In this document: positions 898-36,072 of the stretch, in pieces
Numbering within the stretch: the stretch's first letter is position 1
Layout of the letters: every line of letters starts with the position of its first letter
Origin: Sulfurimonas hongkongensis
GTDB taxonomy: Bacteria > Campylobacterota > Campylobacteria > Campylobacterales > Sulfurimonadaceae
NCBI RefSeq assembly: GCF_000445475.1
Contig: NZ_AUPZ01000019.1
Location: 1-37,229 of the forward strand
DNA: 37,229 nucleotides
Reading direction: 5' to 3'
Program-made: the position numbers and the translations under genes
Notes under the pieces: model-generated
Seen by the model: only the letters and a program-made list of their open reading frames with translations
Databases searched by the model: none
Told to the model about the DNA's origin: nothing

Positions 898-904
898 GGC
901 TACA
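885..904. terminator. Small hairpin at the convergent gene ends
   Basis: TGTAGCC (885-891) and GGCTACA (898-904) form a perfect 7-bp stem with a 6-base loop. It spans the last codons of the GGDEF gene and of the phosphatase gene facing it. No T-run follows on either strand, so an intrinsic terminator is possible but not proven. Confidence 0.35.
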
Positions 905-2720
905 GCTTAAACTCTAAAAGCAACATAGTTATATCATCACTTTGTTCACAATCTTTAGTAAAGTCTGTTATTGATTTTTCCATAAATTGCATTGTTTGGT
1001 TTACGCTCTTCTCTTGTGAGGTAGCCAGAGCATCGCTTACTCTTCTATCTCCAAACTGCTCATCATCTTTTGAAAAAGCCTCTGTAACGCCATCAGTATA
1101 TAAAAAGAGTTTAGAGTTTTTAGTTAAAAAAATTGTCTCATCCCTAAAAGGTAGATTTTCAAAAGCTCCTACAACAGTATTGCCAACTGCTTTGAGCCTT
1201 TTATATTTTCCAGCCTCACTTAGAAGATAAGGTTCATCATGTCCAGCATTAGTGTAGTTTAGCTCTCCGCTTTTTACATTTAATATCCCTAAAAAAAGTG
1301 TAACAAACATATTTGCATCATTGTTAGATGCAATGGTGTTGTTTAGTTTAACAACTATCTCTGATGCAGATAAACCTATGGTTGAATATGCTCTAAGATA
1401 ACTTCTCGTGACCGACATAAACATAGCAGCAGGGACACCTTTACCTGAAACATCCGCAATTAAAAAACAGAGATGCTCCTCATCTATATAAAAAAAGTCA
1501 TAAAAATCTCCACCAACTGCTCTAGCAGGTTTTAGCATCGCACAGAGTCTTATGTTCTCATTTTCAGACAAGCCCTTTGGTAGCATACTTCTTTGGATGG
1601 ACCTTGCAATATCAAGCTCACTATCGATTTTTTGTTGTGCCATAGTAGCTATTCTTAAATCTTTTATATACTTTTTTATAGCTTTTTGCATAGTGTCTAT
1701 TGCCAAAGAGAGTTTGTAAATCTCATCATGGGTTTTTGGAAGAGTTATCTTTTTGTCAAAATCACTCTTTGCTATATCATCTGTTATACGAGTGAGTTCT
1801 CTTAGTGGTTCAGTTACTCTACGAGAGATAAGAGCCATAGTAACTATGAGTAAAATTGCCCCAATAGTAGCTAAAATGATGTGGATTATAGACATATAGT
1901 GCAAAGATGAAAAAAGTTCATCTATAGGAAAGACAATAGCAAGAGTTAGCTTAGTATTTTTAATATTTGCATAGTAAGTCCAGTGCTCTTTTTCTTTTAT
2001 CATTTCATTGTGTTTAACTGGTTTTGTATCATATATTTGCATAATAAGCGCAGGGTCTTTGTGAGCTAAAATTTTATGCTCGTTTGAGAGTATAAAAGCG
2101 TATCCAGAATCAAGTATCTCAATGGCTGAAATCATCTCTTGAATCTTTTTTAAAGTGAGATCAACTGTGAGAATAGCTACAAGTTCTTCTTTATAAAAGA
2201 TAGGATTGCTGTATGTTGCCATCAGCATATCTCCACCACCCTCATCAAAGTATGGCTCACTCCATAGAGGCCCGCTTTGCTCTAGTGGTATTTTGTACCA
2301 CTCTTTTGTAAGGTAGTTATAATCTTTTGAAGCTAAATCTCTATAGTGGATTTCTCCTTTTTCCTTATAATAGTATGGTGAGAAAGGAGTTTTGTAAATC
2401 TTAGTAGGTTTAAAGGCTATAGTTGTACCAAAAAAAGAGTCCTCCTCTTCTAGCATTTTTGTCAATCTCTCTTTAATAGCTGCTTTACTAAAATCGCCTT
2501 CTTGAAAAACTTTTTTTAGTCTTGTGGATGTTTTTTCTGCTTTTGCTATTAGGGCTTCGATTTGGTATCTACTATTTTGCTCCATAAGTTGTGCTTTTTG
2601 TATTGCATCATCTAGGAGTTCTTTTTTTAAAAATAGGTAGCTAACTCCTCCTGTAAAAGCCAAAACAAAAAGAGCAACGGATACAGATGCTAGAGCAAAG
2701 CGTATAGAGATGCTACTCAC
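900..2720 (-). CDS. Membrane sensor with HAMP and SpoIIE/RsbU-type PP2C phosphatase
   Basis: Likely dephosphorylates the STAS antagonist encoded two genes upstream, in response to an extracytoplasmic signal. Order: TM1 at about 8-30, a Cache-like periplasmic sensor at about 35-270 (WSEPYFDEGGG, AILTVDLTLKKIQEMI), TM2 at about 278-298, HAMP at about 300-355 (TEPLRELTRI), then PP2C/SpoIIE at about 370-606. The phosphatase has metal-site motifs GGDFYDFF, IADVSGKGVPAAMF, YTDGVTEA and a terminal SDDITMLLLEF. The start is GTG at 2720, overlapping the stop of the kinase gene (GTGA), which implies translational coupling. Last gene of the seven-gene leftward operon. The fold and domain order match RsbU-like sensor phosphatases closely; the signal sensed is unknown. 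Confidence 0.9.
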   Translation of the reverse strand: MSSISIRFALASVSVALFVLAFTGGVSYLFLKKELLDDAIQKAQLMEQNSRYQIEALIAKAEKTSTRLKKVFQEGDFSKAAIKERLTKMLEEEDSFFGTTIAFKPTKIYKTPFSPYYYKEKGEIHYRDLASKDYNYLTKEWYKIPLEQSGPLWSEPYFDEGGGDMLMATYSNPIFYKEELVAILTVDLTLKKIQEMISAIEILDSGYAFILSNEHKILAHKDPALIMQIYDTKPVKHNEMIKEKEHWTYYANIKNTKLTLAIVFPIDELFSSLHYMSIIHIILATIGAILLIVTMALISRRVTEPLRELTRITDDIAKSDFDKKITLPKTHDEIYKLSLAIDTMQKAIKKYIKDLRIATMAQQKIDSELDIARSIQRSMLPKGLSENENIRLCAMLKPARAVGGDFYDFFYIDEEHLCFLIADVSGKGVPAAMFMSVTRSYLRAYSTIGLSASEIVVKLNNTIASNNDANMFVTLFLGILNVKSGELNYTNAGHDEPYLLSEAGKYKRLKAVGNTVVGAFENLPFRDETIFLTKNSKLFLYTDGVTEAFSKDDEQFGDRRVSDALATSQEKSVNQTMQFMEKSITDFTKDCEQSDDITMLLLEFKL

Positions 2721-3106
2721 AGACTAAGCCTTAAAACATTTAAACCATCTTTTTGCTCATACTCTAAGTTTGGTGCATATTTTTTTACTAAATATATACC
2801 TAAACCTCCAAGCTCTCTCTCCTCAATCTCGGCATCTATATTTGGGTCTTTATAGTCTTGAAGATTAAAAGCTTTTGAATTATCTCTATACTCCATCACA
2901 AATCCACTCTTTTTATCAGACTCTATCTCAAGAGTTATCAAAGGAGTTCTATCTTCAAAATCAGCATGGCGGACTAAGTTTGTAAGCAACTCTTCACAGA
3001 TAAACATCACTTTAAATTTCATCTTTTTATCAGCACCTTCAAGATACTCTTCTATTTTTAAAAGGGTGTCTTCTAACTGATTTAATCCCATCCTAAATGT
3101 AGCCAT
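2717..3106 (-). CDS. RsbW/SpoIIAB-like anti-sigma-type serine kinase (HATPase_c)
   Basis: A 129-residue stand-alone GHKL ATPase of the serine-kinase/anti-sigma class, expected to phosphorylate the neighbouring STAS protein and to bind a target when the STAS protein is phosphorylated. The N-box is EELLTNLVRHA, the G1 box YRDNSKAFN and the G2 box ELGGLGIYLVKK. The length is typical for RsbW-like proteins. It lies 3 bases after the STAS gene and overlaps the phosphatase gene, giving the classic partner-switching trio. No sigma-factor gene is nearby, so its target is unknown and may be an enzyme or the ATPase-GNAT fusion of the same operon. Confidence 0.88.
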   Translation of the reverse strand: MATFRMGLNQLEDTLLKIEEYLEGADKKMKFKVMFICEELLTNLVRHADFEDRTPLITLEIESDKKSGFVMEYRDNSKAFNLQDYKDPNIDAEIEERELGGLGIYLVKKYAPNLEYEQKDGLNVLRLSL

Positions 3107-3109
3107 AAT

Positions 3110-3436
3110 TTAGGCCAGAGCCTCTTGCTTTGTCTCAAACGACTCTATAAAGTTGTCAAAACCAGATAAAAAAAAGACATCCTTAACCATCTCTTCCATT
3201 CCAAATACCCTATATTGGATACCTTCTTTTTTGGAAGTTTTAGCACCAGCTAAAAGGACTTGAAGTCCTGAGCTTGAGAGAAAGCTAACCCCACTTAAAT
3301 CTAACAAACAAGACTCTGGCTTATCTTCTAGTAGTCTTGCGAGTTCTAAGCCAAATTTTGGTGCATTAAAAGTATCTAGTTTTCCACTAGGTGCAACTAT
3401 AAGAGTTTTTTCTTCTACAAAAGATTTTACTTCCAT
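3110..3436 (-). CDS. STAS-domain anti-anti-sigma-type antagonist (SpoIIAA/RsbV-like)
   Basis: A 108-residue single STAS domain. The core reads LLDLSGVSFLSSSGLQVLL; the serines of the SSSG segment are where SpoIIAA/RsbV proteins are phosphorylated by the partner kinase and dephosphorylated by the PP2C phosphatase. Both expected partners are encoded directly downstream, 3 bases away and then overlapping. ATG start at 3436. The family role is a reversible switch that frees whatever the kinase holds. Here the output is likely to concern the acyl-activating enzymes encoded upstream in the operon, which is inference from linkage only. Confidence 0.88.
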   Translation of the reverse strand: MEVKSFVEEKTLIVAPSGKLDTFNAPKFGLELARLLEDKPESCLLDLSGVSFLSSSGLQVLLAGAKTSKKEGIQYRVFGMEEMVKDVFFLSGFDNFIESFETKQEALA

Positions 3437-3439
3437 TTT

Positions 3440-4942
3440 TTATCCTTCATCTATTTGATTGTTATCTTGTGCGCAAACATAATCTCTTAACTCTTTTGCT
3501 AATGGTGTATAGCTGTGGATAAGAGAGTAGTCAAATTTTATGTTGTTTATAAACTGAAATATTAAAGCGTTATCATGATGATAGTATGGAAATATCCCAG
3601 AAAACAGGTAGCCCATATCTTCAAGTTTTTCTATTAAATCCAGAGAGTTTTCATCTTCTAAATCTAGATATAAGTAGATGATGTCTATCTTGGCAATAGA
3701 GAATTTTTTTGTTAGATATTTTACTAACTCTAATGCATCAGATGCTATACTTTTAATAACTATCTCCGCAATGTTTAGTGCAGATATTATAGTATCTGTT
3801 AGTTCAGTCTTAACTGCTGTTTTCGCCCATTTATTTGGGCTTTTTTGTATAGCTTTGGTGCCGATTCCATTATAGAGTTTTTTTATCATCCCCTCATGTT
3901 TTTTTGGCATAAAGAGCTCAACGGCGGACTCTTTTTTTAGGGCGTTATAGCTTATAATAGTTGACTCTCTTTGAGTTAAATTATTGGTAATATTTTTAAA
4001 TGAAACATCAGAACCAGCATAACCAACCAAAAGAGCTACATCACTAAAGCCATACTTAACACAGATCTTTTGCGTAAACTCATGGTTAGTAACTGAGTGT
4101 GAGAAGATGCCATGATATGAAGAGTTCTTTGCTTTACTCATTATCTTTGAAATTAGCTCACTCATAATGCCTTGTCCACGAAACACAGGGTCGCTAATAG
4201 CCATCCCCCACTCACTTATCTTTGCACCATCAAATGGCTGCATCAAAGCGATATGCCCAATAACTCTATTTTGCTGTGAGATTGCAACTTTAGATATAAG
4301 AGAATTTTCTTCTATCTTTTTGACAAGTCTATCTGGGTAGTAAACCATATCATTTGGATAGGAGTAGCCATAAGTTTTATAAAAAAGACGAGAGATGCCA
4401 GTTATATCTCCACCTATTGGCACTCTAATGAGTTTAAAATTATCCTCTTTTGTTATAAGCTCTGGCTCTGATTCTTCTTGGATTCTTTTGTTGGATGCGT
4501 AGATTGTCATCTCTATGGAGCGACCATCTTTTCCTTTGTTTATATAACTATATTTATCTAAAAGTCTATGAATTACAAAATCACTAAGCGCACTTATATC
4601 ATCCCCATCAACCTTTGCAAGAGACTCAAAGGAGACATCTTTTACCATATCATCAAGGCTCTGATCGATTTTTTTAAAAGGATTTTTAGGGATGCCATTA
4701 TCGGAGATAGTGACCTTTAGTCCAGATGCTATATGTGTGATTTCAACTTCTATATCTTCTTCACTACCATACTCAAAATCAAAAGAGATGCTGTTTTGCA
4801 GGCTCTCTTCAAGGGCATAAGAGATTTTTTGTCTCTCTTTTTTGTTGAGACCCACAATCGAGCCGATGGAGTTTAGATACTCAACCAAAGGCTCTATAGA
4901 GTCAAAATTATTTTTAATAATAACCTTACTTGTTTTGTACAT
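3440..4942 (-). CDS. Fusion of HATPase_c (RsbW-like) and GNAT acetyltransferase domains
   Basis: A 500-residue two-part protein. Residues about 1-140 are a GHKL ATPase of the anti-sigma type (N-box ALEESLQNSISFDF, G1 box TISDNGIPKNPF). Residues about 165-320 are a GNAT N-acyltransferase with the acyl-CoA loop PVFRGQGIMSEL and a downstream KYGF motif. The last 180 residues (YLFSGIFPYYHHDNALIF) resemble C-terminal extensions of some GNAT enzymes. The gene lies 1 base after a PaaK-like gene and 3 bases before the STAS gene, so it sits at the joint between the chemistry and signalling halves of the operon. A plausible reading is that the STAS switch controls an acyl transfer through the ATPase domain. 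The GNAT substrate is unknown. Confidence 0.82.
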   Translation of the reverse strand: MYKTSKVIIKNNFDSIEPLVEYLNSIGSIVGLNKKERQKISYALEESLQNSISFDFEYGSEEDIEVEITHIASGLKVTISDNGIPKNPFKKIDQSLDDMVKDVSFESLAKVDGDDISALSDFVIHRLLDKYSYINKGKDGRSIEMTIYASNKRIQEESEPELITKEDNFKLIRVPIGGDITGISRLFYKTYGYSYPNDMVYYPDRLVKKIEENSLISKVAISQQNRVIGHIALMQPFDGAKISEWGMAISDPVFRGQGIMSELISKIMSKAKNSSYHGIFSHSVTNHEFTQKICVKYGFSDVALLVGYAGSDVSFKNITNNLTQRESTIISYNALKKESAVELFMPKKHEGMIKKLYNGIGTKAIQKSPNKWAKTAVKTELTDTIISALNIAEIVIKSIASDALELVKYLTKKFSIAKIDIIYLYLDLEDENSLDLIEKLEDMGYLFSGIFPYYHHDNALIFQFINNIKFDYSLIHSYTPLAKELRDYVCAQDNNQIDEG

Positions 4943-4943
4943 A

Positions 4944-6209
4944 TTAAGAGTTCAGTCTTTTGTCTAAAATTCTTTTTGTTTTACCTGTTCTAGGATTTTT
5001 CTCTAAGGCATCTGCATCACACCATTCAATAGTTATAGGATGAATTATATTGTTGCTAAGGAGCTCTTTAAACATACTCCTTTGCTCGTAAAGATACGCT
5101 ATGATTTTCTTTGAAAGAGCCTCTGCATCTGATGGCATAAGTGCAGGAGTAGCCTTTATAACTGCCCTATCTTTTTTCTCATCATGAGTTACAAGTAGCT
5201 GAAAGCTTAACACTTGAACCTCATCACTAAAATGTTTTAACACATCCATAATATCTTGGGCATAGAGTGTAGCAGGTCCTATTCTAGCACCCTCTTGTGA
5301 GCGACCAAGAATTTTAAACCTTCTATCTTTAACTCCCTCATCCTCGCACCACATAGCCATATCTCCAACAGGATAACGAATGAGTGGCATTAGTTTTCTA
5401 TTTAGGTTTGTAACTAAAAGCACACCTGCTCTGTTTACTTCATCTATCACATCTCCTGTATCTTCATCAACTATCTCCATAATAGTACTCTCATCAAATA
5501 CTCTATGCTCGCCATTTTGGCAAGTCGCAGCGTCAAAGTAGCCAAGCTCTCCACCATCTACAGATGCATAAAGAACTGAGTGCACTTTTATATCGCCAAA
5601 CTCCTCTTTAATAAGCTCAAGTTGGTCATCATAAAATGACTCTCCACCAAAGAGTATAAGGTCAATATTAAGCTTTATATCTTTGTGTGTTTGAAGATAC
5701 GAAACTATACTCATAATGCTTGTTGGCACACCTGCTATAACATTTATGTTTAATTTTTCAAGCATCTCCACTATGACTGAAGTCTCTGTTTGTCCAGCTA
5801 TTGGGTAACTCACACCAATGTCGGCACACTTTACAAGGTCTGTAACATAGATAAAAGATGCGTAAAGTTCTCCTGCATAAAAGATGTTTGCGATGCGATC
5901 ACCTTGTTTGACTCCGTTTTGTCTAAAGCCTCGTCCTGAGACCTCTGTAAAGTTATCCCACTCTTTTGCAGTGAAGTAGGAGTATTTAGGGTTGCCCGAA
6001 GTTCCTCCACTTTTAAAGACTATTCCGCTCTCATGTTTAGATGTAAGAACTCCCTCGCCAAAGTTCTCATTTGCTCTCCAAAACTCTTTTTGCTCTACTA
6101 TAGGATATTTTGAGATATCATCACAATCCTCTTCTACATCCCTATAGTGCTCTGCATAATATGGCGAATTTTTACGGACAAAGTTCACATGTTCTAAAAA
6201 TCTTTTCAT
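4944..6209 (-). CDS. PaaK/LuxE-like adenylate-forming ligase
   Basis: A 421-residue member of the phenylacetate-CoA ligase/coenzyme F390 synthetase branch of the adenylate-forming (ANL) superfamily, which activates carboxylic acids as acyl-AMP. The nucleotide loop SGGTSGNPK is at 67-75; later come LILFGGESF, a YASVDGGELGY segment and LMPLIRYPVGDMAMW, corresponding to the adenylation core. Unlike full PaaK, no ordinary thiolation partner is obvious. It overlaps the upstream fusion gene by 4 bases and its C-terminal neighbour in the fusion protein is a homologue (compare SGGSSGKPT), suggesting duplication. Substrate not predictable from the sequence. The alternative is a LuxE-type acyl transferase. 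Confidence 0.82.
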   Translation of the reverse strand: MKRFLEHVNFVRKNSPYYAEHYRDVEEDCDDISKYPIVEQKEFWRANENFGEGVLTSKHESGIVFKSGGTSGNPKYSYFTAKEWDNFTEVSGRGFRQNGVKQGDRIANIFYAGELYASFIYVTDLVKCADIGVSYPIAGQTETSVIVEMLEKLNINVIAGVPTSIMSIVSYLQTHKDIKLNIDLILFGGESFYDDQLELIKEEFGDIKVHSVLYASVDGGELGYFDAATCQNGEHRVFDESTIMEIVDEDTGDVIDEVNRAGVLLVTNLNRKLMPLIRYPVGDMAMWCEDEGVKDRRFKILGRSQEGARIGPATLYAQDIMDVLKHFSDEVQVLSFQLLVTHDEKKDRAVIKATPALMPSDAEALSKKIIAYLYEQRSMFKELLSNNIIHPITIEWCDADALEKNPRTGKTKRILDKRLNS

Positions 6210-8713
6210 TTTGATATCCTCTTATCTATGATATGCTTTATCTTGCCTGAGTGAGTTACAGCTTCAAAGGTGTTAGCATCTACTAAAAGAGTCTCAAACT
6301 TCAAACCTAGCTCATTGCAACTAAGATCTAAATCTGTATAATTATCTAATAAATAAGCACTTATTTTATCTCCACTCACACCAATACTATCTTCAACTTT
6401 AAGTGTAAGTTTCATATCAATTCCCTCATTGGTTAAGAGGATTTGAGAGACTCCACTATAGCCAAAGCCATCTTCGAGATACTCTGTAAACTTATTAAAA
6501 TGCAGGAATGGGCCACCAGCTTTAAAAACATCACTACTTCTTCCTTGAAGCGTATATTTTGTCTCAACTCGTCCACACGAACAAAGCTCTTTGTTTATAA
6601 AACCAGTATCGCCTATCTCATATCGTAGTATATTTTGACCTTTTCTCTTTTTAGAGCTAAAGATAAGTCTTCCACTCTCTCCATGGGGCACCTTTACTTC
6701 ACTATCAAGTTCAAAGATCTCAAGCTCTTGGATGGATGAGAGTAGATGATACTCATTTGATTCACAATCACTACATTGATACCCAAGTGGACCAGCATCG
6801 TTGCTTCCATAAGCAGCAGCACGAACTAGCTCAACTCCAAACTCAGATTTTAGATACTCTATCTGCTCCTGTGGAAAGTGGTCTCCGCCAAAGAAGAGTT
6901 TTTTTACCACTTTATGCTCTCTAAAGAGCTCTTTGTTATCTGCAAATAGCTTCATAATCAAAGTAGGAAGACTTAAAATCGAGTTTATCTTATGTTCAAC
7001 GATAAGCTGGCCAACCACTTCAGTATCTTCCATAATCCCCATAGGATAGTGTGGAACTTTTAGATACTCTAAAATAGTATGAAAACTCAAAAATCCACCA
7101 TATAGATGCCCAGCTGCAAACATATTTATAACACTATCTCTTTTAGGGTCAAGTCCAGCGCTATAAAGGCCATAAGCAGTAGCCCTCATTTGTGCATGGT
7201 AATCCTCATAAGTATAGTAAGCGTAAGTAGGTTTACCAGATGAACCACCACTCTTTACTACTAGATCTATATACTCTTTTGGAACTTCTAAAGATTGAAA
7301 TCTCTCTTTATTCATTATAGGTATATTGGTTAAATCTCTTGTATAAGAGCCTTCAAACTCTCTAAAACTCGCAACTCTATCTAACTCATCACCTAAAAGC
7401 AAAGAGATTTTTTTCATAAATGATGGCAGAGCATAAACACCATCATGAGGTTCGCCAATATAGCCATCATGCATATGTCCAGCTTCTCTAATCCTTAAAC
7501 ACCCTGCTCCAAAAAGTCTCCTTGAGAGTTCAACTACCCTCTCTCTTGGAGCTACGAGCGCTGCAGTTTGGAGGTAACTCTTCATTGGATGCAACACTGA
7601 TATAATCTCATCCGCTTCAAGTGGCTTTATAAGTATGGTTCTAAAAAGAGGCGATACTCCTAAGCTTTTTCGCTTGTCAGCTATAACAGACCAGCTAAAA
7701 TCTTTTGCTCGCAGTACATAAGTAAGTCCCAAAGCCTCCTCAGTTTTAGCGATGCTAAGAACTGTGCTAATCTCAGCCTCAGCTCCACTACTAGGCGTAG
7801 TTCTTGGCATCGTAGGTGATACTTCTCCTAAGACAGTTGCAAAGCTATCTGCAAAGTTTTTTAACACTTCAAAATCAGAACTCTCCACAAAAATATCTTG
7901 AGGACTAGAACATGCGTTTTGATCTAAGAGACAGATATCCTCTGCTACTTGTCTCATAGCATCTCTATCTTGCATCTTCTCTTTTGCAAAGTAAGCAAAA
8001 GATATTTTATGTCCCCAAGCTACAAATCTTACACCTTGAGGAGTCATATTTTGCACACTTTTTATCGCCTCTTCACTTCCCCAAGCGGAAACTACATCTG
8101 CCGAGTCTATGATTTGTTGGAGTAGCTCTTTTTGTTTTGAAGAGACTTCTAGGATGATAATATAAGGCTTTAGTAACTCTTTTGTATCAAACTCTAAAAA
8201 GGCTTCTAAAAAGAGTTGAGGGAGTCGGTTTTGATTTATCGAAGTTTTTAAGATGTTTATATTTCCACTTAAGAGTCCCTCAAACACGCAAAGCACGCCA
8301 ACAGTAAAAACATTTGTAGGAGCGATATGAACAAGTGTTCCTAGTGGCATCCAAGATTCAAAGTGTTCCTCTTTCATAGAAGTTCTCTCAATTACAAAAG
8401 GGTTTGAACTCCCAAGTTCAGCGATAAGTTTTTCCTCTAGGCCATCTTTAGAGATAAAACTGGTGATGCTACCTAGCATCGCCTCTGCTTTTGCTCTTGA
8501 AGCATCTTGTGTCTTCATAGCGAGCTTTACAAACTTCTCAAAAAGTTCACCACGAGATGAGAGTTCTTCATGCATCTTTTGCGAAATTTCCAAAAGATAC
8601 TCTAGGGGAAATGCTCTGCCTAAAACTGGTTCTATAAAACTTGTGATATTTTCAATATTGTTTAAAAGAGTCTCATCACTTATCCACTCTCCCTGCCATA
8701 AATGTTTTTGCAT
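6206..8713 (-). CDS. LuxC-like acyl reductase fused to a PaaK/LuxE-like adenylating domain
   Basis: An 835-residue fusion. Residues about 20-440 are LuxC-like: the reductase of the bacterial luciferase fatty acid reductase complex, which reduces an acyl thioester to the aldehyde with NADPH. The motif LLDQNACSSPQ places the nucleophilic Cys at 268, matching the LuxC active site. Residues about 460-835 are a PaaK-like adenylate-forming domain with loop SGGSSGKPT at 488-496, FFGGDHF, a cysteine pair CSDC and another CSCGR, and a conserved RYEIGDTGF. In Vibrio LuxC and the LuxE synthetase are separate; here activation and reduction are joined in one chain. One base separates it from luxE. The predicted product is a fatty or other aldehyde; the acyl substrate is unknown. 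Confidence 0.87.
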   Translation of the reverse strand: MQKHLWQGEWISDETLLNNIENITSFIEPVLGRAFPLEYLLEISQKMHEELSSRGELFEKFVKLAMKTQDASRAKAEAMLGSITSFISKDGLEEKLIAELGSSNPFVIERTSMKEEHFESWMPLGTLVHIAPTNVFTVGVLCVFEGLLSGNINILKTSINQNRLPQLFLEAFLEFDTKELLKPYIIILEVSSKQKELLQQIIDSADVVSAWGSEEAIKSVQNMTPQGVRFVAWGHKISFAYFAKEKMQDRDAMRQVAEDICLLDQNACSSPQDIFVESSDFEVLKNFADSFATVLGEVSPTMPRTTPSSGAEAEISTVLSIAKTEEALGLTYVLRAKDFSWSVIADKRKSLGVSPLFRTILIKPLEADEIISVLHPMKSYLQTAALVAPRERVVELSRRLFGAGCLRIREAGHMHDGYIGEPHDGVYALPSFMKKISLLLGDELDRVASFREFEGSYTRDLTNIPIMNKERFQSLEVPKEYIDLVVKSGGSSGKPTYAYYTYEDYHAQMRATAYGLYSAGLDPKRDSVINMFAAGHLYGGFLSFHTILEYLKVPHYPMGIMEDTEVVGQLIVEHKINSILSLPTLIMKLFADNKELFREHKVVKKLFFGGDHFPQEQIEYLKSEFGVELVRAAAYGSNDAGPLGYQCSDCESNEYHLLSSIQELEIFELDSEVKVPHGESGRLIFSSKKRKGQNILRYEIGDTGFINKELCSCGRVETKYTLQGRSSDVFKAGGPFLHFNKFTEYLEDGFGYSGVSQILLTNEGIDMKLTLKVEDSIGVSGDKISAYLLDNYTDLDLSCNELGLKFETLLVDANTFEAVTHSGKIKHIIDKRISK

Positions 8714-8714
8714 C

Positions 8715-9869
8715 TTAAACCTCTCTCTTTTTTAATAGTTCAGATGCAGAGACTGCACAGCTTTTGTTTTGACTAACACCAGCACGACCAAGAACTTCAA
8801 AGAAAGGAGTTTGTGCTCCACAGTCACACTCACTTGGCTTATGCATAACGCCCAAATCTCCCATCATAACACTCACAGCAGGAACTGAAGTGATGTATGG
8901 AGTTACAAAGTTCATAAAGCCACTTTGTCCATAGTCTAGCACTTCTAAGGTTTTAACATCTCTTACAAAGAGTCTCGACCAGATAGGAACATGGAGATTG
9001 TGATTTTTGCACTCTATGTAAGGAATGGAGTGCTCAACTGAACCGTAAGCATCACGGATTCTAGATACCCTGATGCCCAAATACTCATTTATAAGTGAGA
9101 AGAGTTCATCTTTTGATATCTCTTTGTTAGCGTAACCTTTCCAGCCACCGCCAAACATCACAAGTGAATCGGGATGAAGTTGTACTTTTATATCCATCTC
9201 CTTCATCTGCATCAGAGTGAAGTACATAAACGAGGGAAAGCCATGAATGCGAACAGGAAGATTTTGTTCTGCATACTCTTGCAGTTTTCTCACAGTTCCA
9301 AAACGGTCAAACTCATGAGTGCCTGCCGTTTGACGAAGTGCGAAAAAGACCTCTTTTGGTTTTGAAAAAGAGGTAAGAAAAATATTTGTATTTGTAGTTC
9401 CAACTTTAAAGTTTTTAAGTGGCTCATAGGCTAGTAAAAGATAGTTTGCTTCTTGATCTGGTGTGTTAAAACCCATCTCATTATAAATAAATTTTACCAT
9501 CCTTCTAGCGCTTAAAATCGACCACTCATCAAAAAACATCTGAGACTTCTGCCCTGATGTACCTGATGATGTAAGATGCTCGCAAATGTTTTTTTTATCA
9601 ACCGATACGCTTTCATGCATTTTAAAAAAGTTAGCATGGATAAAAGGCAACTCTTTTAAATCATCCACGCTTTTGAGTTTTTCCAAATCAAAATCATAAG
9701 TAAGTTTGCTATAAAACTTATTGTTATTTCGATGCCAAGAGATTATCTCTTTAAACGCATCCACAAACAAAGCATCTAACTCATCACTAGATGCATAGGC
9801 ATCAGTTATTTCACATAGTTTTTGTACATTTTTTAAGGTAGTAGCATCGGGAGGAAGGAGTAGAGACAT
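8715..9869 (-). CDS. luxE: LuxE-like acyl-protein synthetase
   Basis: A 384-residue LuxE family protein (acyl-protein synthetase, PF04443), close to the usual 370-380 residues. LuxE activates a fatty acid as acyl-AMP, moves it to its own C-terminal Cys, and passes it to LuxC. The adenylate loop TSSGTSGQKS is at 100-109; further on are FGGGWKGY and DAYGSVEHSIPYIEC. Near the end, NKSCAVSASELL gives Cys371 in the place of the acylated Cys of Vibrio LuxE. First gene of the seven-gene operon, with AAGGG before the ATG. No luxA or luxB is nearby, so light emission is not implied. Confidence 0.88.
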   Translation of the reverse strand: MSLLLPPDATTLKNVQKLCEITDAYASSDELDALFVDAFKEIISWHRNNNKFYSKLTYDFDLEKLKSVDDLKELPFIHANFFKMHESVSVDKKNICEHLTSSGTSGQKSQMFFDEWSILSARRMVKFIYNEMGFNTPDQEANYLLLAYEPLKNFKVGTTNTNIFLTSFSKPKEVFFALRQTAGTHEFDRFGTVRKLQEYAEQNLPVRIHGFPSFMYFTLMQMKEMDIKVQLHPDSLVMFGGGWKGYANKEISKDELFSLINEYLGIRVSRIRDAYGSVEHSIPYIECKNHNLHVPIWSRLFVRDVKTLEVLDYGQSGFMNFVTPYITSVPAVSVMMGDLGVMHKPSECDCGAQTPFFEVLGRAGVSQNKSCAVSASELLKKREV

Positions 9870-9903
9870 ATTTAAAACCCTTATAAGTTGATATTTAGAC
9901 TAG

Positions 9904-9946
9904 TTCAAGTCTCATATAGTACCTTAAAGAGACTTGAAAAATTATA
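9904..9946 (-). promoter_or_regulatory. Predicted promoter and overlapping operator-like inverted repeat for the luxE operon
   Basis: Reading leftward, TATAAT (9946-9941) is a good -10 box, and the start of transcription should fall about 7 bases later, near 9934. A perfect inverted repeat, TTCAAGTCTC (9904-9913) and GAGACTTGAA (9929-9938) with a 15-base spacer, covers that point. It has no following T-run, so an operator or a 5'-leader hairpin fits better than a terminator. No obvious -35, as is usual for sigma70 promoters in this phylum. Confidence 0.5.
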
Positions 9947-17552: not shown

Positions 17553-18785
17553 ATGGGATTTAGAATTAACACAAACATTGCGGCAATGAACGCACACAGA
17601 AACGCTCAACAAACTAACTTGGGACTTGACAAGAGTCTTAACTCGCTTAGTTCAGGTTTAAGAATTAACAAAGCGGCAGACGATGCTTCTGGTATGGCTA
17701 TTGCCGATTCACTTCGTCAACAAGCTCAAGGTCTAGGTCAGGCTGTAGCAAACGCTAATGATGGTATTGGTGTTGTCCAGACTGCTGATGGTGCATTAGA
17801 AGAGTATATAAATATCTCTAACACTATTAGAACGAAAGCTATCCAAGCTGCATCTGATGGTCAAAACTTACAATCTCGTGAAGCTATTCAAGCAGATATC
17901 GATAGACTTATGGAAGAGGCTCAAAATATTGCTTCAACTACTTCGTTTAATGGTCAAACGCTTTTAAATGGTGCTTATGAGAACAAATCATTTCATATCG
18001 GTGCATACTCCGGTGAGACGGTAAAACTCTCTATAGGAGACTCTCAAACTCATAGTGTTGCTAACAACTTTGCTATGACATCTTCAACAACAGCGGCAAC
18101 AGGTCCTAATACTGCTGGATTTGGTAGTACATCAGCTGGAGCTGCTGCAGGTACAGCTGGTTTAACAGTAACAGTGGGTACTGGTGCTGATCAAAAAACA
18201 GTTAATACAGGTACTGTAAATATAACTGAGGGTGAACATGAAGCTTACGAAATAGCTCAACAGGTTGTTGATGCTTTTAATGCAAAAGCACAAGAGGATG
18301 GTGTTGATGTAAGAGCGAGTGTTTTTGAGAGTTCAAGTTCAACTCCGGGAGCTGCAATATTTGCTATTCGTGTAGACTCTTCTAAAGATTTAAGTAGTAT
18401 GTCTATTACAGATAATGTAAATGATGGAAAATCAGCGGCAATCCAAGCTGCAGCAACAGCAGGTGCCAACAATAACTTCTCTACAATAGATGTTACTACT
18501 AAAGATGGTGCTGAGAGAGCGATTATTATCTCTGACTACGCTTTAAGAGATCTTGATAAAACTAGATCAGATATAGGTTCGGTTCAAAACCAACTTGAGT
18601 CTACTATCAGAAATATCTCTGTAACTCAGGTAAACGTTCAAGCCGCCGAGTCTCAGATTCGTGATGTTGACTTTGCCGCAGAGAGTGCAAACTTTTCAAA
18701 ACTTAACATCCTAGCTCAGTCTGGTACATACGCTATGAGTCAAGCTAATGCTGTTCAGCAAAATGTGATGAGATTGTTACAGTAG
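17553..18785 (+). CDS. flaA: Flagellin (FlaA-type, sigma28-driven)
   Basis: A 410-residue flagellin. The N-terminal D0/D1 (MGFRINTNIAAMNAHRNAQQ, then SLNSLSSGLRINKAADDASG) and C-terminal D1/D0 (QIRDVDFAAESANFSKLN ... MSQANAVQQNVMRLLQ) are conserved. The central 190 residues are Ser/Thr/Ala-rich and form the exposed part where sialic-acid-like sugars are usually attached. ATG at 17553 with AAGGA upstream. Followed by a terminator, then by a second flagellin nearly identical at both ends. Exported by the flagellar type III system, so no signal peptide is expected. By promoter type this is the FlaA-like major flagellin. Confidence 0.95.
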   Translation: MGFRINTNIAAMNAHRNAQQTNLGLDKSLNSLSSGLRINKAADDASGMAIADSLRQQAQGLGQAVANANDGIGVVQTADGALEEYINISNTIRTKAIQAASDGQNLQSREAIQADIDRLMEEAQNIASTTSFNGQTLLNGAYENKSFHIGAYSGETVKLSIGDSQTHSVANNFAMTSSTTAATGPNTAGFGSTSAGAAAGTAGLTVTVGTGADQKTVNTGTVNITEGEHEAYEIAQQVVDAFNAKAQEDGVDVRASVFESSSSTPGAAIFAIRVDSSKDLSSMSITDNVNDGKSAAIQAAATAGANNNFSTIDVTTKDGAERAIIISDYALRDLDKTRSDIGSVQNQLESTIRNISVTQVNVQAAESQIRDVDFAAESANFSKLNILAQSGTYAMSQANAVQQNVMRLLQ

Positions 18786-18815
18786 TAACTCTTCTCTAAC
18801 TTTGCTAAACAAACT

Positions 18816-18848
18816 CACTCCCAAGTTTTTTTTTGGGAGTGTTTTACT
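18816..18848 (+). terminator. Intrinsic terminator after the first flagellin
   Basis: CACTCCCAA (18816-18824) and TTGGGAGTG (18833-18841) form a perfect 9-bp stem with a short T-rich loop, followed by TTTT and further T-rich sequence. It separates the two flagellin transcripts. Confidence 0.85.
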
Positions 18849-18922
18849 CTTCTTTTTAAAACCTCTCTTATGAACATTCACTACCTCAAACAATTATAAA
18901 ATATAAGCCGACATTATCAACT

Positions 18923-18940
18923 TTGGAACACTCCTTGCTT
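18923..18940 (+). promoter_or_regulatory. Sigma54 promoter of the second flagellin gene
   Basis: TTGGAACA (18923-18930) and TTGCTT (18935-18940) make a -24/-12 pair. GG at 18925-18926 and GC at 18937-18938 are separated by exactly 10 bases. This equals the flaB-type sigma54 promoter of Campylobacter. Transcription is expected near 18950, about 25 bases before the ATG. Confidence 0.88.
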
Positions 18941-18974
18941 AAACCATACAAATAACCACTAAAAAGGATTTGTG

Positions 18975-20195
18975 ATGGGATTTAGAATTAACACAAATAT
19001 TGCAGCAATGAATGCTCATAGGAACGCTCAACAAACTAACTTAGGACTTGATAAAAGTCTTAACTCACTTAGTTCAGGTTTAAGAATTAACAAGGCGGCA
19101 GACGATGCTTCTGGTATGGCTATTGCCGATTCACTTCGTCAACAAGCTCAGGGTCTAGGACAGGCAATCATGAATGCAAATGATGGTATCGGCGTTGCCC
19201 AAACAGCTGATGGTGCCCTAGAAGAGTATATAAATATAACAAACATCATCAGAACAAAGTCCATCCAAGCTGCGTCTGATGGTCAAAACTTGCAGTCTCG
19301 CGAGGCTATTCAAGCAGATATAGATAGGCTTTTAGAAGAGGCTCAAAATATCGCTTCAACTACTTCATTTAATGGACAAACACTGCTAAATGGAGCTTTT
19401 CAAAACAAATCCTTTCATATAGGTGCGTTTTCTGGAGAGACTGTAAAAGTATCCATAGGAGACTCTCAGATTGAGAAAGTATCCACATTTGCTATGACTT
19501 CTGCCACAACTGCTAACAGTGCTGGTACTGTTGGATTTGGTAATACATCAGCTGGAGCTACTGCAGGTTCTGCTACTTTATCAGTAACAGTAGCTGGTAC
19601 TGCTACAGCTGTTACATCAGGTCCTGTAGCTATAACTTCGGGAGCACATAGTTCTTATGCAATAGCTCAAAAAGTGGTTGATGCGTTTAATGCAGATGCT
19701 CAGACTAACGGTGTTGATGTAAGAGCGAGTGTTTTTGAGACTTCAAGTTCGATGCCTGGAACTCCTTCATTTGCTATTCGTGTTGCTTCTAGTTATGATT
19801 TAAGTGGTATGAATATTACTGAGACTGTAGATGATGGAAAAACAGCATCAATCCAAACTACAGCATCTGTAGGTCTTAACAATAATTTTTCTACAATCGA
19901 TGTTACCACTAAAGATGGTGCTGAAATAGCGATCATTATTACTGACTTTGCTTTAAGAGAGCTTGATGCAACAAGGGCAGATTTGGGTTCAGTTCAAAAT
20001 CAACTTGAATCAACCATCAGAAATATCTCTGTTACTCAGGTCAATGTCCAAGCCGCCGAGTCCCAGATTCGTGATGTTGACTTTGCGGCAGAGAGTGCAA
20101 ACTTTGCAAAACTCAACATCCTAGCTCAGTCTGGTTCATACGCCATGAGTCAAGCTAATGCAGTTCAGCAAAATGTGCTTAAACTATTACAATAG
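18975..20195 (+). CDS. flaB: Flagellin (FlaB-type, sigma54-driven)
   Basis: A 406-residue flagellin, almost identical to the first in its first 130 and last 90 residues, and different in the middle. ATG at 18975 was chosen rather than the GTG at 18972: it has AGGA at the same 6-base distance as in the first gene and gives the same N-terminus MGFRINTNIAAMNAHR. Typical differences include QAIMNANDGIGVAQTAD. The exposed centre is again Ser/Thr/Ala-rich (TSATTANSAGTVGFGN). The distinct promoter class points to the basal or minor flagellin role of FlaB. Shared ends suggest tandem duplication kept alike by gene conversion. Confidence 0.95.
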   Translation: MGFRINTNIAAMNAHRNAQQTNLGLDKSLNSLSSGLRINKAADDASGMAIADSLRQQAQGLGQAIMNANDGIGVAQTADGALEEYINITNIIRTKSIQAASDGQNLQSREAIQADIDRLLEEAQNIASTTSFNGQTLLNGAFQNKSFHIGAFSGETVKVSIGDSQIEKVSTFAMTSATTANSAGTVGFGNTSAGATAGSATLSVTVAGTATAVTSGPVAITSGAHSSYAIAQKVVDAFNADAQTNGVDVRASVFETSSSMPGTPSFAIRVASSYDLSGMNITETVDDGKTASIQTTASVGLNNNFSTIDVTTKDGAEIAIIITDFALRELDATRADLGSVQNQLESTIRNISVTQVNVQAAESQIRDVDFAAESANFAKLNILAQSGSYAMSQANAVQQNVLKLLQ

Positions 20196-20207
20196 AACTT
20201 ACTGATC

Positions 20208-20342
20208 AATCTATAAACTAGATTCCGTGTCGGAGCACGGAATGACGGTTTCTCATCATTCTGAATCAAGCACGAAATGATGGTTTTTTGTCATCCTGCG
20301 GTGTGATGGTTTTTCGTCATCCTGAACTTGATTCAGGATCTA
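20208..20342. repeat. Composite palindromic repeat after the second flagellin
   Basis: ATTCCGTG (20222-20229) and CACGGAAT (20236-20243) form the same hairpin as at 12799, with 24 identical bases at 20208-20231. GTCATCCTG units are repeated at about 20289 and 20316, and ATCCTGAA/TTCAGGAT (20319-20339) makes a second hairpin. The right end overlaps the last codons of the leftward gene at 20333. Probably transcribed as the end of flaB. Confidence 0.75.
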
Positions 20343-20785
20343 GCTTGAGTGCTCTCTAGCGATTTTAATGTTTTTAAGAGCTGGTGTTCATATGTCTTGA
20401 TGATATTATCAGTTGAGTCTATAAAGAGTTTTTTCATATTTTTGATGTGCTTTTTTTTGTCTTTTAGTCCCTCTGTGTTGAAAAAATCTGTTATATATGA
20501 AGCTATGAGTTGTAGATATATAAGCATGATTTGATGTAGTTCGTCTTCATATGAGTAAAGTGCCTCTGTCATAAACTTTATAATACTACTCTCAAAGTGT
20601 TGCTCACTAGATGAACTACTCTCTTTAAACTCTTGCAGTAACTTTTGGTAGTGCTTAACATTTTTTTCTCTGTCTTTTAAGTTTTGTGTCTCTTGCTCTG
20701 TTAGAGTCTTTGAAGAGTACTTATCTAATATCTCTGTTAAGTCTTTTTTAATGTTTAGTTTATCTATATCTTGAAGTGCTTTCAT
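20333..20785 (-). CDS. Unrecognised coiled-coil protein next to the flagellins
   Basis: A 150-residue, Lys/Glu-rich, mostly helical protein. It begins MKALQDIDKLNIKKDL, has a polyserine stretch ESSSSSEQHF at about 56-65, and a long amphipathic helix region with one more hydrophobic section (ALYSYEDELHQIMLIYLQL). No signal peptide or clear family. It lies between the second flagellin and maf, on the other strand, so a flagellin chaperone, glycosylation helper or unrelated role are all open. Its last codons (A-R-S-stop) come from the palindromic repeat, so the original C-terminus may have differed. Confidence 0.7.
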   Translation of the reverse strand: MKALQDIDKLNIKKDLTEILDKYSSKTLTEQETQNLKDREKNVKHYQKLLQEFKESSSSSEQHFESSIIKFMTEALYSYEDELHQIMLIYLQLIASYITDFFNTEGLKDKKKHIKNMKKLFIDSTDNIIKTYEHQLLKTLKSLESTQARS

Positions 20786-20854
20786 TTGTATTGCTCTTTG
20801 AATGATTTAAAAATACTATATCGAAATATTCTTTTATAGATTATAAAATTTAGA

Positions 20855-20860
20855 TATAAT
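20855..20860 (+). promoter_or_regulatory. -10 box of the glycan island
   Basis: TATAAT at 20855-20860, after an AT-rich stretch, lies 29 bases before the maf start, which has AAGGGG upstream. Sigma70-type promoters in this phylum usually show only the -10. No sigma28 or sigma54 match was seen here, so maf may be expressed constitutively. Confidence 0.5.
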
Positions 20861-20888
20861 AACCTTCATATCAAAAGGGGATAAGTAG

Positions 20889-23510
20889 ATGCAAGATATA
20901 GAGTCTGTTGTAGTTCAAAACTATGAAAAAAGTATGCTTTACTTTGAACAAAGTCATCCTGACCTTTTTAACAAACTAAAAGCACTTGAACTGCTTCTTG
21001 GTGAGGGCAAATACCCACAAAAGTATGACCTAGAGTTTAAAGATGGCTACTTTGATGTTGTAGAGCTAGCCTCTGGTAATTTTCTATATAATATGGACTC
21101 TTATAAACACTCTCATAACTTAGTAAAAGAGATAAACTTCAAAAAAGATGCACATGTAATAGAGACTTTTTATAACCATAACTTTGATGATGAGTCAGTT
21201 AAAGCCGCAAAACAATTAACAGCTAACCATACTTACGCAACAACTGCTCCAATAGTAAACTACTACAACAAAAATATTGAAAAATCCATGTCTATGAAAA
21301 AAATACATAAGTTTATGTTCCTAGGGGTTGGGCTTGGTCTCCATATACAAAACATAAGTCAAAAAACGGGTGCGGATGTTTTTTTAGTCTTAGAAGATGA
21401 TATAGAGCTATTTAGGCTATCTCTTTTTACATGTAACTACGAAGAAACATTTAAGGGTAGAGAGGTTTTTTTTGGCATAGCCCAAAATAACCCAGAGTTT
21501 GAAGAGACTTTTGCACATTTTTATGAATATGCTTTTATACGAAACCACTACTTAAAATTTTCTCTTTTTTCATCAAAAGATGAAGTACTTATAAAAAAAA
21601 TACAGACTGCAATACTCAGCAGATCAGAACACTGCTACTCTCATGCAGCACTTCTTGAGAAGGGCTCTAGGGTTTTAGAAAAAATTAGTAAAGATTATAA
21701 ATTTTTTAGCATGCTCAAAAAAGATGAAAAGTTTTTTGATGATAAGCCCATACTTGTTTTGGGTGCTGGTCCATCTCTGGGTGCAAACAAAGAGTGGTTA
21801 AGACAACACCAAAACAACTTTATCATCATCGCTCCTTTTTCGACTTTACGAGTTTTGTATCACCTTAATATCGCCCCAGACATCATTGTTCACATAGATG
21901 AAGGAGACGCTTTTGCTGAGCGTAGTATAGAACTATATGAAGGAAAGAAGGAGTTTTTCAAAAACTCTCTTTTTATCTTTAGTGCTTCTATCCCACAACT
22001 TTTCTTTGATACATTTGACAAAGATGCCATCTATCTACTAGAAGATAGAACCCAGTACAAGCTAAATGACAACTACCTAGAGATAGCAAGTGTGGGTGAA
22101 GCAGTTTACGCTATAGCCCTCTCACTAACGCGTCAAAATGTTTACTTGCTAGGTCTTGATATGGCACTAGCGGATGATGGTTCAAGTCACTCAAGAACAC
22201 ACTCTAAAGGCAAAGCCGATACTTCACTAGCAGATAAACTAGATGATGTAGCGGATATCCGAAAAACCGTGCTAAATGTGAGAGGTAACTTTAGAGATAA
22301 AGTTGTAACTATGCCACTCTTTACTATGTCTATAACACTTATAAATCTACAAACCAAAAAGTACAGATCTAAAGATCAACAGATATACAACCTTAGTGAT
22401 GGTGCATACTTTGACAACACTACACCTTTAAGACCAGAAATAGTAGAGTTTAAAAACAAAGATGAACAAGAGTATGGAGTAGTACAGAGTGAGTACGGCA
22501 TAACTTTTATAGGTTACTATAAAAAGATAAATAGTGATAACGTTTATGATATAGATGTCTACATAGATGGCAACCATATCGATACTCTAAGAGCTGATAA
22601 GGCGCTTAAGAGCGTAGAAGAGGCTTTTGATGTAGATAGCAATGGATTTGAGTTTGTTCTTGAAGAAAAGTACCTTAAAGAGTCACATCTACTTGAGTTT
22701 AAAGAGAGCAAAAGTGGCAAGCTACTCATGGATGGATCTGTCAAGACTATAAGTATGCAGGATGAAAAATTTAATGAGCTTAGATTTATGGATAGTGTTG
22801 AACACATTGATGATAAAGAAATTAAAAATGCCTACTGCAAAGATGCTATAGGATTTATGGCGACTGAGGAGAATTTGGCAGATGTGGAGTTTGTAAACTA
22901 TATCAAAGAACTAATGGTTAGATTTCCTGATGTTGAATTTAAGGGGTTTTGTTTTGATGATACTTGTCTAAATAACCTAAAGTCAGTTTTTGGTGAGTTT
23001 GGCTCAACAATCAAAATTAAAATTGTTACCTCTGGGTTAGAAGTTATTGAAAACATCGAAATATTTATTTACACGAAAAAAAGTTTAGAAAATAATTCTC
23101 ACAATGTATTAGTTAAAAAAATGGTACATAAATGTAAGTGCATCCATAGAATTATGTTTGATAAATCAAGAAAAAATAAATTACTGAAAGATGTAGGAAT
23201 TATTGACCAAAATGATTGGTTTCTTAAAAATGCTCCTTCTCTTGGAATAAACCAACAAGACTTTATCAATGCACAATACAACAGAAATCTGTTGCTAGCA
23301 CAATTGGCTTATAAACAAGGCTTAAATATTGAAGTTACTTTAGATACAAATTCTTATGATTGGATGTATTTTGATCAATTGGAATATTTATTAAAATACT
23401 CTCAGTACAAAAAACTTGTAACTAAAATTCCATATCTTTTTCATAATAAAATATTTGAAAGCCTTGTTTCTTCATCAGATGAAGTAATTAGTAGTAAACC
23501 AATAAAATAA
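20889..23510 (+). CDS. maf: Maf-family flagellin glycosyltransferase (motility accessory factor)
   Basis: An 873-residue Maf/DUF115 protein with the MptE-like core: a nucleotide site LVLGAGPSLGANKEWL at about 290-305 and a VHIDEGDAFAERS segment. Maf proteins transfer CMP-nonulosonic acids (pseudaminic or legionaminic type) onto Ser/Thr of flagellin in the cytoplasm before export. The family N-terminal domain with FMFLGVGLGLHIQNI is present. Residues after about 650 are a separate region whose coding DNA is visibly more AT-rich than the first two-thirds. First gene of a long rightward cluster and next to the two flagellins, which fits the role. Confidence 0.92.
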   Translation: MQDIESVVVQNYEKSMLYFEQSHPDLFNKLKALELLLGEGKYPQKYDLEFKDGYFDVVELASGNFLYNMDSYKHSHNLVKEINFKKDAHVIETFYNHNFDDESVKAAKQLTANHTYATTAPIVNYYNKNIEKSMSMKKIHKFMFLGVGLGLHIQNISQKTGADVFLVLEDDIELFRLSLFTCNYEETFKGREVFFGIAQNNPEFEETFAHFYEYAFIRNHYLKFSLFSSKDEVLIKKIQTAILSRSEHCYSHAALLEKGSRVLEKISKDYKFFSMLKKDEKFFDDKPILVLGAGPSLGANKEWLRQHQNNFIIIAPFSTLRVLYHLNIAPDIIVHIDEGDAFAERSIELYEGKKEFFKNSLFIFSASIPQLFFDTFDKDAIYLLEDRTQYKLNDNYLEIASVGEAVYAIALSLTRQNVYLLGLDMALADDGSSHSRTHSKGKADTSLADKLDDVADIRKTVLNVRGNFRDKVVTMPLFTMSITLINLQTKKYRSKDQQIYNLSDGAYFDNTTPLRPEIVEFKNKDEQEYGVVQSEYGITFIGYYKKINSDNVYDIDVYIDGNHIDTLRADKALKSVEEAFDVDSNGFEFVLEEKYLKESHLLEFKESKSGKLLMDGSVKTISMQDEKFNELRFMDSVEHIDDKEIKNAYCKDAIGFMATEENLADVEFVNYIKELMVRFPDVEFKGFCFDDTCLNNLKSVFGEFGSTIKIKIVTSGLEVIENIEIFIYTKKSLENNSHNVLVKKMVHKCKCIHRIMFDKSRKNKLLKDVGIIDQNDWFLKNAPSLGINQQDFINAQYNRNLLLAQLAYKQGLNIEVTLDTNSYDWMYFDQLEYLLKYSQYKKLVTKIPYLFHNKIFESLVSSSDEVISSKPIK

Positions 23511-23523
23511 TAGCAAAAATGAA

Positions 23524-27499: not shown

Positions 27500-27502
27500 A
27501 AT

Positions 27503-30929: not shown

Positions 30930-30930
30930 A

Positions 30931-31870: not shown

Positions 31871-31878
31871 GATGTATT

Positions 31879-33832: not shown

Positions 33833-33844
33833 ACAGAGGTAAAA

Positions 33845-34828: not shown

Positions 34829-34854
34829 AGTTAAAAACTAAAGAGGTTATATAA

Positions 34855-36048: not shown

Positions 36049-36072
36049 GAAATTCGTTAATTAATAAATATT

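Follow-up and report, generated by a model that had tools for sequence, protein, structure and literature searches.

A partner-switching module joined to LuxE, LuxC-PaaK and PaaK enzymes in Sulfurimonas hongkongensis: a candidate signal-gated small-molecule pathway

Why should acyl-activating and acyl-reducing enzymes of the lux type share one operon with a partner switch, in a genome that has no luciferase-family match? Partner switches are known mostly as controls of sigma factors. The question is raised by contig NZ_AUPZ01000019.1 of S. hongkongensis, of which positions 1 to 37,229 of the forward strand (37,229 nucleotides, here called the window) were analyzed. Seven contiguous minus-strand open reading frames (ORFs) at 900-9869, found by an ORF scan of the window, form an operon for a LuxE-family synthetase, a LuxC-PaaK fusion, a second PaaK-type ligase, a GNAT acyltransferase with an N-terminal ATPase-type domain (HATPase-GNAT), and a trio of STAS protein, RsbW-like kinase and PP2C phosphatase. 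On balance, we favor reading this operon as a signal-gated small-molecule pathway in which the switch gates the acyltransferase directly, not a sigma factor.

A profile scan of 84,980 species returned 356 stretches related to the LuxC-PaaK fusion, the best 80 of which were analyzed. Since these are the top-scoring ones, the sample is biased towards the window; all 80 are LuxC-PaaK fusions, and because both search patterns lie inside the LuxC half, the remaining 276 stretches need not be. Together with four plasmid loci (L091, L092, L094, L096) they make up 84 cassette loci. Genes for HATPase-GNAT, STAS, RsbW-like kinase and PP2C occur together in six of the 84 (L098, L099, L101, L131, L113, L117), and one further locus, L100, has the trio on a contig that stops before GNAT; an eighth, L103, has HATPase-GNAT without the trio on its 8.2-kb contig. 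All seven operon genes are conserved in Desulfogranum (L131) and in two Sulfurimonas metagenome-assembled genomes (MAGs): L098, and L099, where the contig cuts off the operon on both sides. The operon proteins of L098 are 83-95% identical to those of the window, the fusion reaches 95% identity in a Sulfurimonas MAG, and in three Desulfobulbaceae loci identity is 71-72% for LuxE, 60-61% for the fusion, 55-64% for STAS and 46-50% for PP2C. In the other 76 loci, whose GNAT is stand-alone or unassigned, profile searches found no complete trio. At E ≤1e-3, the RsbW profile matched 0/76, the STAS profile 1/76 (L124) and the PP2C profile 7/76 (L121, L122, L126, L132, L146, L147, L173); the profile behind this last count included one REC-PP2C protein of L098, which the later profiles PPd and PPn leave out. 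Sequences of L113 and L117 are themselves part of the STASb and RsbWb profiles, and their scores there are partly by construction; the L113 STAS and both kinases have independent Pfam matches, and the L117 STAS is assigned by a single profile match.

The trio is arranged in three ways: it lies downstream of GNAT (window, L098, L099, L131), upstream of LuxE (L100, L101), or is divided, with PP2C downstream of GNAT and STAS-RsbW convergent (L113, L117). The complete form spans three phyla, Campylobacterota, Thermodesulfobacteriota and Pseudomonadota; because enzymes and switch stay together across these phyla and in all three arrangements, the idea that they are neighbors by chance was rejected. 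An earlier note, made from the sequence alone, had proposed a signal-controlled pathway of the acyl or aldehyde type without luciferase, and this proposal is supported in that signaling and enzyme genes are kept together in all three phyla, though their arrangement differs. Its description of the acyl group as fatty is not borne out, as no result here fixes the substrate. Independent, repeated gains of the trio were also considered, a quick tree having put it in two places, but the constrained tree was better, and an approximately unbiased (AU) test did not reject a single origin of all trio-bearing fusions (p-AU 0.86).

Three of the loci with a PP2C match (L126, L132, L146), which form one clade in the tree and have the Streptomyces-type cassette, carry SpoIIE-type PP2C genes about 280-380 bases before GNAT on the same strand; the two that were tested are PAS-GAF-SpoIIE-HATPase_c_2 proteins. 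They are a possible second link of PP2C control to the pathway.

The operon is rare. Searches of 150 other genomes of the family (E ≤1e-3) and another 396 of the phylum (E ≤1e-10) found no further LuxC-PaaK fusion, the matches covering one half of it; the two operon-bearing Sulfurimonas MAGs were in neither sample. The earlier note had held that a gene order rare or scattered among relatives would speak against its proposal; the order is rare, but it is kept whole where it is found, so the objection holds by half. Such intact retention looks like transfer of the whole unit, and the seven-gene unit is real, rare and, apparently, transferable.

The switch module also occurs without the lux genes. 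A search for the kinase in 397 Campylobacterota genomes gave seven matches, one of them the window's own, and the neighborhoods of four others were examined. In two genomes of one genus from another Campylobacterota family (G354, G394; loci L284, L286), HATPase-GNAT, STAS, kinase and PP2C follow one another as in the window, and the retrieved stretches contain no lux genes; for the G354 GNAT, the ATPase match falls just under the Pfam cut-off. In Thermodesulfobacteriota, 66/395 genomes have a GNAT match at E ≤1e-15. From these, 40 places were picked by hand, mostly the best full-length ones, and 35 carry the ATPase domain by profile. STAS and kinase adjoin HATPase-GNAT in 2/35 (L230, L232; order STAS-RsbW-HATPase-GNAT), STAS only in 1/35 (L227), the lux cassette plus PP2C in 1/35 (L251) and the lux cassette alone in 1/35 (L252). 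Among Gammaproteobacteria, the class of the Dokdonella genome, 3/369 match at E ≤1e-25, the Dokdonella genome included, and on the stretches of the other two no trio and no lux genes were seen. No trio appears on 20 stretches from the window's own family, one of which (L061) holds a histidine kinase instead; in the two tested, an M20 peptidase gene is the partner. Two observations on the GNAT family itself may be added: in Campylobacterota (L044-L060), a HATPase-GNAT or GNAT gene often follows a gene of about 396 amino acids (aa), which in both cases tested encodes an M20 peptidase, and one Thermodesulfobacteriota genome has four tandem GNAT genes of this family (L265, 7567-11790).

A receiver for the switch is suggested by the structure predicted for the HATPase-GNAT protein. 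Its AlphaFold model (8 sequences; mean predicted local distance difference test score, pLDDT, 74.8) matches, over residues 2-150, the RsbW of the RsbV/RsbW complex 6m37 (Z 17.4, root-mean-square deviation 2.0, 112 residues aligned) and SpoIIAB (Z 16-17), and over residues 169-341 GNATs (Z about 13). The C-terminal half modeled alone (53 sequences, pLDDT 91.8) gives weak matches to GNAT-like folds (Z ≤8.6; best Foldseek E 1.6e-3), and we tentatively predict a GNAT-like fold for it. In the RsbW-fold domain of the window, L098, L099, L101 and L131, ALS, VLS or AVT replaces the GLG box, and the N-box Asn is kept; we read this GLG-less domain as a docking domain. The separate kinase keeps its GGLG box in 6/6 aligned sequences, and its N box in the window; its first glycine box reads DNSKAF in the window, with Ser or Ala for Gly in three Sulfurimonas. 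A rule by which the GNAT ATPase decays whenever a separate kinase is present was rejected, since L113, L117, L230 and L232 have the kinase yet keep a GLG/ALG-type box.

From these parts, and with chemistry taken from the enzyme families, a course of events can be proposed. LuxE would adenylate a carboxylic acid and carry the acyl group on Cys371; LuxC would take it over as a thioester on Cys268 and reduce it to an aldehyde; the fused and free PaaK ligases would supply activated forms of one or two more acids, while an acyl group would be moved onto an amine by the GNAT. On the signaling side, the RsbW-like kinase would hold the STAS protein phosphorylated, an extracellular ligand on the Cache domain would switch on the PP2C phosphatase, and the dephosphorylated STAS protein would alter GNAT activity by docking on the RsbW-fold domain that the GNAT carries. 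The GNAT is the likely output of the switch because it carries an RsbW-fold domain and because the GNAT-STAS-RsbW-PP2C unit occurs without lux genes.

As to the ligand, the Cache domain of the window has Tyr121, Trp128, Tyr129 and Tyr144 spaced like the residues that PMC10104139 names for the amino-acid motif (alignment counted by eye, with Trp-Tyr set at 128-129), with Lys for Arg126 and the Asp of position 173 one residue on. As a lead only, this hints at an amino acid or related compound. In L098, the operon holds an extra gene, for a tryptophan/tyrosine permease, between GNAT and STAS.

A bolder version of the proposal, possible but offered tentatively, is that HATPase-GNAT, STAS, RsbW and Cache-PP2C make up a self-standing, sigma-free partner switch, with an acyltransferase bearing its own RsbW-fold receiver as the output, that bacteria of at least three phyla have plugged into a mobile LuxE/LuxC-PaaK/PaaK pathway for an amino-acid-linked aldehyde or acylated signal. 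An outside ligand would then switch synthesis at the level of the enzyme, and the receiver in the window's clade would be a pseudokinase without the ATP-lid glycines. If true, a switch with its receiver domain on a metabolic enzyme would show that partner switches are able to control chemistry without an intermediate sigma factor. The cassette, which is widespread, points to a way of making small products of the acylated or aldehyde type. Among the carriers of the complete form, Desulfogranum mediterraneum DSM 13871 (L131) bears a culture-collection number, which makes the idea directly testable.

Several results weigh against a direct gating of the GNAT. STAS, kinase and PP2C stand together in G446 and G344 (L283, L285) with no GNAT on the stretch, and in L266 the three lie beside a GNAT without ATPase domain. 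No switch or lux genes were seen on the stretches, some of them short, of 30/35 Thermodesulfobacteriota HATPase-GNAT loci. L251, a lux cassette with HATPase-GNAT, has a PP2C gene but neither a STAS nor a kinase gene in 10.7 kb upstream or 9 kb downstream, and no trio was seen beside the lux cassette and HATPase-GNAT of L252, nor with the HATPase-GNAT of L103, an 8.2-kb contig. With the GLG box lost in the window's clade, the RsbW-fold domain may be unable to bind ATP, and the loss might reflect decay. Among the 76 loci used for comparison, some lie on short contigs (e.g., L106, L109, L118, L150). Finally, as a single origin is not rejected, the co-occurrence of switch and enzymes does not amount to many independent events.

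The trio without a nearby GNAT fits a second explanation, in which the switch acts outside the operon, on a sigma-70 protein or, as in SiaABCD, on the PAS-GGDEF diguanylate cyclase encoded at 127-897, and the enzymes are merely co-transcribed with it. Two bases separate the end of the cyclase gene from the stop codon of PP2C, and the phosphatase scores 97 bits on the SiaA model over its HAMP-PP2C part (cut-off 700). However, the cyclase gene is convergent with the PP2C gene and therefore not in the operon, and a search for the cyclase (phmmer, E ≤1e-4; stretches of limited length) matched none of L098-L101, L131, L113 and L117. The genome has two proteins with sigma-70 region 2 (frames of 618 and 245 aa), sized like housekeeping and flagellar ones, which they probably are; neither is in the operon, and no dedicated sigma factor was seen, in line with the earlier note. 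An outside target would also leave the RsbW-fold domain on the GNAT unexplained, and we consider it unlikely.

Other candidate switch parts are few in this genome. HATPase_c_2 is above cut-off in two proteins, both from the operon, with five more matches below it; STAS is above cut-off in the operon protein and in frames of 518 and 559 aa, taken as transporters by their size; and SpoIIE is found in the operon phosphatase and one other protein. The economical reading is a local target. The absence of luxAB claimed by the earlier note holds for the whole genome, in which Bac_luciferase (PF00296) has no match at E ≤0.01, compared to matches in 10/14 control genomes. No LuxD model was matched by the operon proteins (no search for LuxD was made elsewhere in the genome); an alpha/beta hydrolase at 10432-11268 matches general hydrolase models.

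Features of the operon are listed in Table 1. Its ORF coordinates agree with the earlier description of seven leftward genes with tiny gaps or overlaps; the run ends at 900 as described, but its first gene starts at 9869, not 9946. From LuxE on, successive genes are spaced by 1 base, an overlap of 4, then 1, 3 and 3 bases, and an overlap of 4. The domain names given to the seven genes are correct by Pfam. In the second half of the LuxC fusion the AMP-binding match (1.4e-6) is just under the Pfam cut-off, and for the free PaaK-like protein it is 2e-4, also below cut-off, with PaaK models fitting better (up to 6e-27). All operon proteins fall far short of every NCBIfam equivalogue cut-off and are thus distant family members. 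GC content is 0.33-0.38 in the seven genes compared to 0.33 for window positions 10000-37229, and the window has no match in scans for Rfam families and tRNAs.

Table 1. Genes and other features of the operon in the window, listed in the direction of transcription.
Feature	Coordinates	Strand	Basis
LuxE-family acyl-AMP/acyl-protein synthetase, 384 aa	8715..9869	-	Pfam LuxE 2e-38; acyl-accepting Cys371
LuxC acyl reductase-PaaK-type AMP ligase fusion, 835 aa	6206..8713	-	Pfam LuxC 2e-86; catalytic Cys268, ligase Lys824
Second, stand-alone PaaK-type AMP ligase, 421 aa	4944..6209	-	NCBIfam PaaK models up to 6e-27, below cut-offs; Lys410
HATPase_c_2-GNAT protein with C-terminal GNAT-like half, 500 aa	3440..4942	-	Pfam HATPase_c_2 1e-9, GNAT 2e-6
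Single-domain STAS protein, anti-sigma-antagonist type, SSSGL motif	3110..3436	-	Pfam STAS 1.5e-18; TIGR00377 above cut-off
RsbW-like kinase, 129 aa	2717..3106	-	Pfam HATPase_c_2 7e-14; alignment
dCache-HAMP-SpoIIE (PP2C) membrane phosphatase, 606 aa, GTG start	900..2720	-	Pfam PDC/Cache, HAMP, SpoIIE 4e-45; alignment with relatives
Terminator-like hairpin after the last operon gene (PP2C)	904-885	-	consensus match only

The enzymes keep the residues that their predicted chemistry calls for. Counting the window, LuxE Cys371 is conserved in 82/82 aligned sequences, LuxC Cys268 and the fused-PaaK Lys824 each in 85/85, and Lys410 of the stand-alone PaaK in 79/79. The window's LuxE aligns to the LuxE of PDB 7xc6 with the C-terminal Cys matched; its LuxC half aligns to 7xc6_A including the catalytic Cys, and the second half of the fusion to PaaK 2y4o.

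Among the 84 cassette loci, LuxE is present in 82 (81 full, plus the one in L099 that the end of the contig truncates) and was not found in L109 and L114; a separate PaaK is present in 81, the others being L102, L144 and L150. A GNAT gene is assigned in 78: 69 loci have a protein of about 390 aa that clusters together (the one tested is a GNAT by Pfam), in L092 and L094 the GNAT is known from annotation, and seven have HATPase-GNATs. Leaving aside the HATPase/trio group, a clustered GNAT is lacking in five of the remaining 76 loci (L149, L150, L153, L154, L171); L149, L154 and L171 do match the GNAT profile, though in overlapping frames, and ORF starts in high-GC loci are approximate. The usual form of the cassette thus has a stand-alone GNAT, and the window represents a minority form with an RsbW-fold domain on it. 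The window-type GNAT profile matches 25/69 of the stand-alone GNATs, weakly and over part of their length (E ≤1e-3), which suggests a weak kinship. An MFS transporter clusters in 26 cassette loci (Pfam, one tested).

The cassette of LuxE, LuxC-PaaK, PaaK and GNAT is mobile. The best 80 of the 356 stretches include Streptomyces, Massilia, Bdellovibrionota, Sulfurimonas and Desulfobulbaceae, and a plasmid tblastn search covered at least 80% of the query in six records, four from Streptomycetaceae and two Salmonella IncF plasmids. In Salmonella L092 the gene order is that of the window. On both Salmonella plasmids (L092, L093; CP054717.1, CP053580.1), which are conjugative, the cassette lies near recombinase genes, and the GNAT frame is shorter in L093. 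A more distant cassette in L251 and L252 has a LuxC-PaaK-type protein of 890-898 aa, an MFS protein and an extra protein of about 455 aa without Pfam match. A Streptomyces europaeiscabiei plasmid (L097, 1883-10341) carries stand-alone LuxE and LuxC genes beside YcaO-like, MBL-fold and DUF692 genes, possibly a modified-peptide cluster that uses acid reduction.

The conserved lysines and the frequent GNAT allow for another role of the acyltransferase, as a switch-controlled protein acetyltransferase of the Pat type that acetylates the catalytic lysine of PaaK or LuxE and so turns the pathway on or off. Pat acetylates this class of lysine in AMP-forming ligases, and both ligases here keep their C-terminal lysine throughout the aligned sequences. 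Against this role, most HATPase-GNATs outside the cassette have no such ligase nearby, PaaK or fusion profiles matching in 3/35 Thermodesulfobacteriota loci (L238, L251, L252), and two Campylobacterota loci that were tested have an M20 peptidase gene beside the GNAT, which is more in keeping with small N-acyl compounds. We regard this role as improbable.

A third explanation starts from the rest of the window, where two similar flagellin genes are followed, within 17553-37152, by an apparent locus for glycosylation of flagellin with sugar acids, as read from ORF translations. LuxE and LuxC might then serve lipid modification of a surface glycan or of flagellin, the flagellin- and glycan-type genes being 7.7-27 kb away. 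In Aeromonas and Enterobacteriaceae, LuxC and LuxE genes are found inside islands for flagellin glycosylation (PMC7874193, PMC4875605). Against this, the genes beside LuxE in L098 differ from those of the window (a weak test, as the contig ends 3.7 kb past LuxE), and annotated plasmid cassette loci are not in glycan islands. We think this explanation very unlikely.

In the PubMed Central (PMC) literature, mostly without subscription papers, we found no description of a LuxE/LuxC-PaaK/PaaK/GNAT cassette or of a GNAT as the output of a partner switch. The two sides of the operon belong to known kinds: acid reduction of the lux type without light, and a partner switch that has an enzyme as its output, as SiaABCD does. 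The LuxC-LuxE fatty-acid reductase of luminous bacteria (7xc6) shares the C-terminal acyl Cys of LuxE, the catalytic Cys of LuxC and the adjacency of the genes. Unlike there, the window's genome lacks the luciferase family, no LuxD model was matched by its operon proteins, and LuxC is fused to PaaK, with another PaaK and a GNAT at its side. Apart from the LuxC/LuxE genes of flagellin islands, a precedent for non-luminous use is GriC/GriD of grixazone biosynthesis, a carboxylic acid reductase without luciferase (PMC10179220). If the proposed chemistry holds, the window's enzymes would, like GriC/GriD, lead from acid through acyl-AMP to aldehyde without a luciferase; in the window, the activating and reducing halves are in one protein, with LuxE, PaaK and GNAT alongside.

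On the signaling side, the window resembles RsbU/RsbV/RsbW and SpoIIAA/SpoIIAB in bringing together PP2C, STAS and an RsbW-like kinase and in the RsbW fold, and differs in that no cognate sigma factor was seen and that an acyltransferase bears a further RsbW-fold domain. In SiaABCD of Pseudomonas aeruginosa (PMC8457831), a small protein under a PP2C-type switch binds and activates the enzyme SiaD, and the output is likewise an enzyme rather than a sigma factor. The window's output would be an RsbW-fold-GNAT and not a diguanylate cyclase, its small protein matches STAS (PF01740), its phosphatase reaches 97.5 bits on the SiaA equivalogue model (cut-off 700), and its operon includes no diguanylate cyclase, the GGDEF gene being on the other strand.

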